This document shows, piece after piece, positions 4,026-16,616 of a stretch of DNA of 36,834 nucleotides (positions are counted from its first letter, which is position 1; each line of letters opens with the position of its first letter). The translations under genes and the position numbers were made by a program. The notes under the pieces were generated by a model. That model did no database searches, was not told the DNA's origin, and worked only from the letters and a program-made list of their open reading frames with translations. Origin of the DNA: Nitrospirota bacterium (GTDB taxonomy: Bacteria > Nitrospirota > Thermodesulfovibrionia > Thermodesulfovibrionales > JdFR-85); assembly GCA_013151495.1 (NCBI GenBank), contig JAADIE010000001.1:1-36834 (forward strand), given 5' to 3'.

Positions 4026-5249
4026 TCAGAACTTTAGCACATAGTATCTGAGCCAGACATAGATCATGGAGAGAAAGACTGTCAGTATCATGATTGGCAT
4101 TCCGTAAAACATAAACCTTACAAAAGAGATCTTTCTACCAGCCCTTTCTGCGAGGCCTACAACAATAACATTTGCAGATGCCCCAATTGCGGTGCCATTG
4201 CCACCCAGGCATGCACCAAGGGCCAGCGACCACCACAGAGGCATGAGTTCGGGGTTATGGAGTAGCTGTATGCCCTGAAGATGAGGCCATAGCTGTTTGG
4301 CCATGTCGATAATAAGAGGATTCATGGTGGCTACATAGGGGATATTGTCCACAAAGGCAGAGGCAAAAGCTGAAAACCACATTACAAGCATACTGGTGGC
4401 AAACATATTGCCATGGGTTATGGCAAGCACTTTCACCGATAACCATTTAATAAGACCTACCTTAACAACGCCACCTATGATAATGAATAGGCCCATAAAG
4501 AAGAAAATGGTAGGCCATTCCACCTCCGCAAGATAGTGATGGGGGTCGTGAGTGCCGGAGATCAGGAGCAACAACCCGGCACCAAAGAGGGCAACTGTGG
4601 CTGGCTCGTAATGTAACATTCCATGAAATACAAAGCCAAGGATAACAACGCCAAGAACGAAAAGGGACTTCTTTAGCATTACAGGGTCCTTGATAGCCTC
4701 TCTTTCGTTCATCTCAAGTACACGTTTTTTTAGCTCGGGCTTAACATGTAACTTCTTGCCGAAAAAGATCTTCAGTACGAAAAGGAAAATGATCATGATG
4801 ATAATTACAGGTGGCGTAAGGTTGATTATAAAATCCATAAAGTTTAACTTTGCCTTAGATGCTATCATGATGTTGGGTGGATCGCCAATCAGGGTGGCTG
4901 TACCTCCTATATTAGAGGCCAGTGCTTCAGATATCAGGAAAGGTATCGGATCAACCTCGAGGGCATCTGCAATTAAAAGTGTTACTGGAGCAAGTAATAG
5001 CACTGTGGTTACATTGTCAAGCAGTGCACTTAACACTGCAGTAACCACGGCAAAGATTGCCATAATGCGAAAAGGTTCGCCTTTGCCCCATTTAGCACTT
5101 TTAATTGCAATGTACTCGAAGAAGCCCGTGGGACGCATAAGGTTAATAATTGTCATCATGGAGATGAGCAGGAAGATAACATTCCAGTCCACACCGAGTT
5201 CCTCAACATGGAAGGCCTCACGTTGTTCAAGTATCTTGAGGATTAACAT
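4026..5249 (-). CDS. NhaD/ArsB-type Na+/H+ antiporter, copy 1 (open part of a 5'-frameshifted gene)
   Basis: A 407-residue ion-transporter-superfamily permease: GVDWNVIFLL, the LLDNVTTVLLLAPVT helix, the ASNIGGTATLIGDPPNIMIA loop and the C-terminal ACLGGNGTAIGASANVIV loop are the signatures of NhaD/ArsB/P-protein carriers. It probably exchanges Na+ for H+; arsenite or another anion is possible. This open frame starts at an internal ATG inside the second helix and lacks the family's first helix. That helix (WTATAIFLLAYAIIVSEKVHK) is encoded just upstream in the same frame, but has no start codon. The natural start at 5394 is in another frame (see the separate entry). Either the gene is disrupted, read by frameshifting, or carries a sequence error. 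It follows the CBS gene in an operon and is a paralogue of the gene at 5980-7203. Confidence 0.8.
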   Translation of the reverse strand: MLILKILEQREAFHVEELGVDWNVIFLLISMMTIINLMRPTGFFEYIAIKSAKWGKGEPFRIMAIFAVVTAVLSALLDNVTTVLLLAPVTLLIADALEVDPIPFLISEALASNIGGTATLIGDPPNIMIASKAKLNFMDFIINLTPPVIIIMIIFLFVLKIFFGKKLHVKPELKKRVLEMNEREAIKDPVMLKKSLFVLGVVILGFVFHGMLHYEPATVALFGAGLLLLISGTHDPHHYLAEVEWPTIFFFMGLFIIIGGVVKVGLIKWLSVKVLAITHGNMFATSMLVMWFSAFASAFVDNIPYVATMNPLIIDMAKQLWPHLQGIQLLHNPELMPLWWSLALGACLGGNGTAIGASANVIVVGLAERAGRKISFVRFMFYGMPIMILTVFLSMIYVWLRYYVLKF

Positions 5250-5394
5250 TAACGAGGCACCAACAATGGCAACAATGGTCTTGTGAACCTTTTCAGAGAC
5301 AATAATAGCGTAGGCCAGCAGGAAGATGGCCGTTGCCGTCCAGACCGTTCATTACCACCTGTTGGGTGGTCTCTGCTACTGCTTCATGAGCCAT
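5229..5394 (-). repeat. Near-identical 5' segment shared by the two antiporter genes (copy 1)
   Basis: This stretch matches 7181-7355 with only two substitutions plus one 7-base gap, whereas the bodies of the two genes differ at many more positions. The abrupt change in similarity points to recent gene conversion. Confidence 0.85.
5250..5394 (-). pseudogene. Out-of-frame 5' end of antiporter copy 1
   Basis: The ATG at 5394 has a good ribosome site (GGAGGT) and sits 2 bases after the stop of the CBS gene. It begins MAHEAVAETTQQVVMNG, a natural antiporter N-terminus, but this frame ends at a TGA after 33 residues. The distance to the downstream ATG at 5249 is 145 bases, so a +1 shift is needed to join the two. 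Relative to copy 2, 7 bases are missing at the junction near 5344. The segment is nearly identical to the 5' end of copy 2. Confidence 0.75.
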
Positions 5395-5396
5395 TT

Positions 5397-5873
5397 TTAT
5401 ACCTCCTCTCCAAGCAGGGCCTTAACCAGTGCCCAGTAAAGGTCCCTGACATATATTATTCCAACCGGTTTTCCGTCCTTCCCAAGTACTGGTACCCTCT
5501 GTAAGTTATGCTTGATTATTATGTCGGCAACCTCCATTAGTGGAGCATTTTCGTTTACAGTTATTACCTTTTTTGTCATTACCTCTTCTACTTTCATGTT
5601 TTCAACTCTTTTTGCCATCTTCTCAAGCATACCTTCCCATGTGAACTCACCAAGCTCTGCCATGGTCATGTACTCTGGTATGATAGCCCTCAGTATGTCC
5701 TTGATTGAAAGCATTCCTATAAGGTTTCCATCTGAGTCTAAGACTACCATACCTTTTACCCCGACTCTTTGCTCACCCCTGCGAGCTAACTTCATTTGCT
5801 TGATCGCTTCTTTGATTGTGGTTTGTGGTCGCAGGGTGTCTTTAATGGGTTCCATAATATCTTTGGCTTTCAC
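5397..5873 (-). CDS. Tandem CBS-domain protein
   Basis: A 158-residue soluble protein made of two CBS domains (about 1-70 and 92-155) and nothing else. Each begins with the classic MxxK/DIM or VMTKKVITV strand followed by an AxxxM/ADIIIK helix, and each ends in GMLSIKDIL or GIIYVRDLYWAL. CBS pairs bind AMP, ATP, SAM or NADH and gate transporters and enzymes. The start is a GTG at 5873 behind GGAGGA. Its stop codon lies 2 bases before the start of antiporter copy 1, so translation is coupled. Placed between two antiporter paralogues, it is probably a regulatory subunit that tunes ion exchange to energy state (inference). Confidence 0.88.
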   Translation of the reverse strand: MKAKDIMEPIKDTLRPQTTIKEAIKQMKLARRGEQRVGVKGMVVLDSDGNLIGMLSIKDILRAIIPEYMTMAELGEFTWEGMLEKMAKRVENMKVEEVMTKKVITVNENAPLMEVADIIIKHNLQRVPVLGKDGKPVGIIYVRDLYWALVKALLGEEV

Positions 5874-5979
5874 GGTCTCCTCCTGGAAAGTTGGAAGTTA
5901 AAAAAATTTTGGTACTTATCTTAATACTAAGTAAACTAATCAGTCAACCAGATACGATTAAATTTCTTTTATAGGGGTA

Positions 5980-7203
5980 TTAAAATTTTATTACATAGTA
6001 CCTGAGCCAAACATAAAGCATGGAAACCGTTATGGATAGTAGAGTTATGGGGATTCCATATAATAGAAACCTAAAGAAACTTATTCTGTTGCCGGCCCTT
6101 TCTGACATACCCACGACAATGACATTAGCTGAAGCGCCAATAGGTGACCCATTGCCGCCCAGACATGCACCAAGGGCAAGTGACCACCATACCGGCATAA
6201 GGTCTGGATGTTGTAACAGTTCTTTTCCTGTTACATGGGGCCAGATCTGTTCGGCCATATCTATAACCAGTGGATTCATTGTGGCTACATAGGGAATATT
6301 ATCAACTATTGCAGATGCAATAGCAGAAAACCACATCAAAACCATACTGGTTGCAAATAGATTTCCCTCTGTTAGATGAAGTATCTTGACTGACATCCAC
6401 TTTACCAGACCAACCTTAACCACACCACCCACAATAATGAACAGCCCGATAAAAAAGAAGATCGTTGGCCACTCTATTTCTGCAAAGTACTCGTGCGGAT
6501 TATGAGTCCTGGATATTAGAAGCAGTAGACCAGCTCCAAATAGTGCAATAGTGGCAGGTTCCAGTTTTAACATACCATGAAAGACAAATCCGGTAAGGAC
6601 AACTGCCAGAACAAATAAGGACTTTTTTAACAATAAGGGATCCTTGATGGCATCCCTTTCATTCATGCGCATTATTCTTTTTTTGTTGTCCTCACTGGTT
6701 ACAAGCCTTTTATTGAATAGAAGCTTCATAATAATGAGCATTATAAAAATTATGAATATTACCACCGGAGTGAGATTGTAAATAAAATCCATAAAATTGA
6801 GTTTTGCCTTGGATGCAATCATGATATTGGGTGGATCGCCAATTAGAGTGGCAGTACCACCAATATTTGAGGCCATTATCTGCATTATCAAAAAGGGTGT
6901 AGGACTTACTTCAAGGGCCTCGCAAATTAGAAATGTAACAGGTACAATAAGCAGCACCGTGGTTACATTATCAAGCAATGCACTTAAGACAGCGGTGACT
7001 ACAAACAGAATCATCAGAATTTTTAAAGGGTCACCCCTTCCAAGCTTTGCACTTTTAATGGCAACATATTCGAAGAAGCCGGTTCTTTTAAGGACATTAA
7101 TAATAGTCATCATGCCTATAAGGAGGAAGATAACATTCCAGTCCACGCCAAATTCCTCGACATGGAAGGCCTCATGTTGCTCAAGTATCTTGAGGATTAA
7201 CAT
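5980..7203 (-). CDS. NhaD/ArsB-type Na+/H+ antiporter, copy 2 (open part of a 5'-frameshifted gene)
   Basis: A 407-residue paralogue of the permease at 4026-5249, collinear over the whole length and mostly identical in protein: same GVDWNVIFLL, LLDNVTTVLL, GGTATLIGDPPNIMIA and ACLGGNGSPIGASANVIV signatures. Differences cluster in the cytoplasmic loop near residues 155-180. As in copy 1, the first helix is encoded upstream in frame without a start codon. The well-supported start at 7355 needs a -1 shift to reach it. The short upstream frame ends in TAATG, whose ATG is the first codon of this ORF, so reinitiation could make a protein lacking helix 1. It is the first gene of the minus-strand antiporter-CBS-antiporter operon. 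Confidence 0.8.
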   Translation of the reverse strand: MLILKILEQHEAFHVEEFGVDWNVIFLLIGMMTIINVLKRTGFFEYVAIKSAKLGRGDPLKILMILFVVTAVLSALLDNVTTVLLIVPVTFLICEALEVSPTPFLIMQIMASNIGGTATLIGDPPNIMIASKAKLNFMDFIYNLTPVVIFIIFIMLIIMKLLFNKRLVTSEDNKKRIMRMNERDAIKDPLLLKKSLFVLAVVLTGFVFHGMLKLEPATIALFGAGLLLLISRTHNPHEYFAEIEWPTIFFFIGLFIIVGGVVKVGLVKWMSVKILHLTEGNLFATSMVLMWFSAIASAIVDNIPYVATMNPLVIDMAEQIWPHVTGKELLQHPDLMPVWWSLALGACLGGNGSPIGASANVIVVGMSERAGNRISFFRFLLYGIPITLLSITVSMLYVWLRYYVIKF

Positions 7204-7355
7204 TAATGAGGCACCAACAATGGCAACAATGGTCTTGTGAACCTTTTCAGAGACAATAATAGCGTAGGCCAGCAGGAAGATGGCCGTTGCCGTCCAGAGA
7301 AGGTGCCGTTCATTACCACCTGCTGGGTGGTCTCTGCTACTGCTTCATGAGCCAT
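7181..7355 (-). repeat. Near-identical 5' segment shared by the two antiporter genes (copy 2)
   Basis: Partner of the repeat at 5229-5394. It contains 7 bases (at about 7307-7314) absent from copy 1. The similarity stops at the start codon: the ribosome-site context differs between copies. Confidence 0.85.
7204..7355 (-). pseudogene. Out-of-frame 5' end of antiporter copy 2
   Basis: The ATG at 7355 is preceded by TAAGGAGGTA and encodes the same MAHEAVAETTQQVVMNG N-terminus as copy 1. The frame then reads through 50 residues and stops exactly at TAATG (7205-7201), overlapping the ATG of the main ORF. The offset to that ATG is 152 bases, so one base is missing (or two extra) relative to an intact gene, at or near the codons after NGTF. 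Confidence 0.75.
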
Positions 7356-7369
7356 CGTTGTACCTCCTT

Positions 7370-16441: not shown

Positions 16442-16616
16442 AGGGTAGAAGGGTATAGGCTTTTCGCTCATTCTCAGCGGCTGTCCGCTATGCCCCCAAA
16501 AAGTCTGCGACTTTTCGGGGGCCCTTCGCTTCCGAGGCAGGCAATCTACTTTAGCATCCTGGTGAAGCTATTAGATTGCCTGAATCCGCTCAAACCCTAT
16601 ACCCTTCTGCCCCAAT
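16442..16616. other. Structured intergenic element bounded by a 17-bp inverted repeat
   Basis: This takes up most of the only gene-free stretch over 300 bases (16397-16733). The ends are GGGTAGAAGGGTATAGG and its complement CCTATACCCTTCTGCCC (one mismatch). Inside are three further hairpins in series: AGCGG-CTGT-CCGCT; GCCCCCAAAAAGTC-TGC-GACTTTTCGGGGGC (14 bp, one mismatch); and CAGGCAATCTA/TAGATTGCCTG with an inner TAGC/GCTA stem. No ORF of note lies within. The layout of a closing stem plus internal stems suits a folded RNA of about 175 nt; terminal inverted repeats without a transposase would also suit a MITE-like element. Confidence 0.6.

Follow-up and report, generated by a model that had tools for sequence, protein, structure and literature searches.

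De Bruijn-graph assembly can generate false variants located at distance k from contig ends when repeats are left unresolved, and the same work also describes scaffolds whose contigs overlap (PMC5368935). Gene conversion between tandem paralogues leaves a short near-identical tract in diverged copies, together with trees that conflict. The window studied here (the whole stretch of DNA analysed, 36,834 nt) contains two antiporter genes, copy 1 and copy 2 (Table 1), each with a frame break within such a tract, and we consider it very probable that these breaks are assembly joins, and thus an assembly artefact, rather than mutations. Both antiporter bodies belong with the CitMHS/ArsB-NhaD superfamily permeases, with scores of 290 and 293.5 bits for PF03600 (CitMHS), far above the Pfam gathering cut-off of 31.9. 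Their matches to NhaD (TIGR00775), ArsB and MamN were weaker: the copies scored 63.6 and 63.2 bits against TIGR00775, an NhaD equivalog with a cut-off of 577.1, which was not reached. Both antiporters fell below the cut-off of every NCBIfam equivalog, and substrate assignment was withheld.

In both copies, an AGGAGG sequence precedes a start codon (5394 and 7355, both on the - strand) whose reading frame is not that of the main ORF; the internal ATG is offset from this start by 145 bases in copy 1 and 152 bases in copy 2. Alignment of the two copies reveals a 7-base gap at the break, with only two or three substitutions in the surrounding tract, versus ~70% identity for the bodies. The upstream frame of copy 2 terminates as TAATG at the internal ATG, an arrangement absent from copy 1. 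An earlier, sequence-only reading of this DNA had reported well-formed starts with strong ribosome-binding sites in a different frame from the helix-1 coding sequence after them, offsets of 145 and 152 bases, coinciding break sites differing by seven bases, a scarcity of substitutions near the break and the TAATG of copy 2, and these descriptions were borne out.

Table 1. Features of the antiporter locus and of the assembly (- strand, minus; joins are given without strand)
Feature	Coordinates	Strand	Details
Antiporter copy 1 (CitMHS/ArsB-NhaD-like)	4026..5394	-	Start 5394; frame break 5344/5345; main ORF begins at internal ATG 5249
Antiporter copy 2 (CitMHS/ArsB-NhaD-type)	5980..7355	-	Start 7355; frame break 7298/7299; main ORF begins at internal ATG 7203
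CBS-domain gene	5397..5873	-	Directly upstream of copy 1; between the two antiporter copies
91-nt exact run common to copy 2	5254..5344	-	In copy 1; break to first divergence (k-mer node)
91-nt exact run common to copy 1	7208..7298	-	In copy 2; from the break
Probable contig join, copy 1	5344..5345	.	5 nt fewer than relatives
Probable contig join, copy 2	7298..7299	.	2 nt in excess of relatives (duplicated TC)
Gene-converted 5' tract, copy 1 (likely donor type)	5200..5404	-	Outer limits approximate
Gene-converted 5' tract, copy 2 (likely recipient)	7154..7365	-	Outer limits approximate
Short N runs	L147:16214-16227, L147:16537-16579, L171:4833-4840, L179:2264-2293

N-termini were compared across homologues at the genus, family and order levels, and also in named MAGs, among them JALUAR010000075 (Thermodesulfovibrio sp.). 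In the close relatives with sequence in this 5' region, it is in frame (VVMNGTFW followed by TATAIF), as in MTHEVAETTQQVVMNGTFWTATAIFLLAYAIIVS and MAHEAVAEATQQVVMNTTFWTATIIF. At the break, copy 1 has five nucleotides fewer than the relatives and copy 2 has two nucleotides more, the dinucleotide TC being repeated. The sequence to the right of the break is identical in the two copies (TCTGGACGG), and the two breaks share this right junction but have different left sides. Because the relatives are in frame and the copies deviate from them by -5 and +2 nt, both copies carry true, mutually different frame breaks in the assembled sequence, and the ancestral state is the intact frame. Third codon positions hold most of the differences from relatives, in the antiporter bodies and in the tract (188 of the 237 differences between the body of copy 1 and the same-genus genome G001), and this excess shows that both antiporter genes, helix 1 included, have been translated and were under purifying selection. 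The same-genus genome has one antiporter (L119, G001:C113), of the copy-1 type, and no copy 2 was found there.

The TAATG at the internal ATG of copy 2 would suit recoding, phase variation or reinitiation, in which helix 1 is switched or omitted by means of frameshifting at the break site, possibilities that the sequence-only reading had raised. We consider this extremely improbable, as there is no slippery heptamer and no repeat beyond (TC)2 at the break, the two copies require different shifts, and no slippery or repeat motif is conserved in the relatives, which read through in frame and encode helix 1 without a shift. Reinitiation to give a form lacking helix 1 is also difficult to reconcile with the position of the internal ATG, which, as read from the sequence, lies within the second hydrophobic segment, and with the presence of TAATG in copy 2 only. 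None of these three proposals thus gained support. In the comparison of the locus with relatives that the same reading had suggested, the close relatives with sequence there had the N-terminal stretch, with helix 1 in frame and no shift needed. Helix 1 is thus normally made, and this speaks against an internal start by design.

The 5' tract of ~200 bp is 90-100% identical between the copies. In 50-base bins around the break, identity was 98, 100, 96 and 90%, and it ranged from 48 to 84% beyond. The tree based on the bodies only separated the copies, copy 1 grouping with the ‘a’ paralogues (100/100) and copy 2 with the ‘b’ paralogues (100/99); in the tract-only tree, copies 1 and 2 paired (100/97), and the ‘a’ sequences were the nearest to them. 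Because the body and tract trees conflict and several relatives have similar tracts, the tract is attributed to real gene conversion between the copies, the cause that the sequence-only reading had already given for the 5' identity. The donor was likely a copy 1-type sequence, and copy 2 the recipient, because the ‘a’ sequences lie nearest to the paired tracts. Near-identical tracts (59-140 nt exact) were also observed at other positions in the paralogue pairs of G009 (L127), G007 (L126) and G013 (L128), a sign that the tandem antiporter genes have undergone conversion repeatedly in this family. A literature search found no report of gene conversion in this antiporter family.

The longest exact run between the copies is 91 nt and starts exactly at both breaks, each of which lies exactly one k-mer (91 nt) away from the first divergence between copies 1 and 2. 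Exact repeats were surveyed in the window and 100 other contigs, corresponding to 1.08 Mb of the 1.73-Mb draft in 128 contigs. Four repeats of at least 87 nt were identified in this 1.08 Mb, all of exactly 91 nt, and no exact repeat was longer. Three were contig-end overlaps (end of C2 with start of C90, end of C90 with start of C87, and end of C70 with end of C73), and the fourth was the antiporter pair; terminal 91-nt sharing between two contig ends was already found in the first 80 other contigs. When a de Bruijn assembler runs at k=91, a k-mer is shared only at the branching ends of contigs. As the 91-nt repeats are confined to contig ends and the antiporter pair, the right-hand pieces of both copies originated as two contigs that emerged from a single k=91 de Bruijn repeat node. 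By our own estimate, the chance of a coincidental 91-nt exact run is roughly 1%. The G009 pair, which served as a control, has a shared exact run of 140 nt and both frames are kept; the contig name HyVt-450_k145 suggests that G009 was assembled at k=145. Runs of N (8, 14, 30 and 43 nt) occur elsewhere in the assembly, and are probably assembly gaps left by scaffolding at an estimated distance, and not masking. Two short N runs sit in an apparent membrane transporter gene. A dispersed repeat of ~77-150 bp is present in the window (16527-16603), and several other contigs of the genome carry copies of it at 86-92% identity.

The two joins probably arose as follows. About 200 bp of the 5' end of copy 1 was copied onto copy 2 by gene conversion. 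Were both genes to keep the frame seen in relatives, their exact shared run would in truth be 113 nt, exceeding the k of 91, and a de Bruijn assembler blocked by this run would start the right contigs with the last 91 shared bases and end the left contigs with the first 91, for a true left/right overlap of 69 nt. If paired-read distances then served to position the contigs, and an estimated overlap was trimmed from the left contig (~74 nt for copy 1, ~67 nt for copy 2), differences of -5 and +2 nt would result. We infer this last step, a mis-trimmed overlap leading from the k-node to the indels; mis-trimming of the left side only would produce one shared right-hand junction with differing left sides. 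Assembly error, which the sequence-only reading had mentioned as a caveat, therefore provides the best answer, the distance from break to divergence being equal to the length of the contig-end overlaps. The paired frame breaks are most likely not a real feature of the organism, in which each gene most likely continues without interruption from MAHEAVAETTQQVVMN through helix 1.

There is only a slim chance that both breaks are real and that the adjacent paralogues are expressed without helix 1 or via recoding. Real pseudogenisation, in which one frameshift was spread by gene conversion and one copy then received a second hit at the same spot, is likewise very unlikely. A genuine conversion tract does surround the breaks, and the relatives establish the ancestral frame, but the differing indels would require the second hit to fall on the same base, the bodies display no other decay and are under strong purifying selection, and the match of 91 nt to the assembly k-mer would be left unexplained. 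The differing indels and this coincidence leave the earlier proposal of a lesion spread by conversion unsupported. Scars of a double-strand break in the tract, repaired by conversion and end joining to leave the -5 and +2 indels, are hardly credible at all: such repair would fit the small indels at one site, which lack microhomology, and the TC repeat, which could be a filled-in overhang, but no Ku gene was found in the genome, which led us to reject an NHEJ scar, and a third matching site, such as a third copy or a CRISPR spacer, was rejected because no match was above chance. End joining also leaves the 91-nt length unaccounted for.

Other frame breaks are rare. A homology-based frameshift search of the 47 kb of G000 comparable with relatives, blind to the first ~25 codons, yielded no convincing case, its sole match being two ORFs antisense to each other. 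Frameshifts were also sought with a codon-usage HMM in G000 (255 kb) and G001 (224 kb), but this model, which is blind near gene starts, flagged mostly gene boundaries and was set aside. In another MAG, a copy-2-like antiporter (L230:1441-2641, G015:C40) is frame-disrupted, being ~14 nt short in the conserved GDPPNIM segment, which the adjoining paralogue has kept; this disruption is possibly an assembly join of the same class. Contigs end inside an antiporter gene in G006, G012 (two pieces), G043 and G013 (L229, L231, L232, L233 and L128), a hint that these paralogues are hard to assemble.

These observations provide a simple test by which false frameshifts can be recognised in draft metagenome assemblies without reads: it is asked whether a break lies exactly k bases from the divergence of repeat copies, with k taken from contig-end overlaps. 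False pseudogenes would be expected to gather in recently converted paralogues. The real biology is repeated conversion between tandem antiporter genes in this family, whose members among the relatives bear the name Nitrospirota MAGs, and its interest is modest.

The short near-identical tract in diverged copies and the conflicting trees do not differ from those of known gene conversion between tandem paralogues, several relatives having tracts elsewhere in the same pair. The frame breaks resemble the de Bruijn-graph artefact described previously (PMC5368935), in which a difference likewise occurs exactly k bases from contig starts and is caused by a repeat longer than k; however, that artefact is a false SNP call, whereas the antiporter case is an indel produced where contigs were joined within a scaffold.
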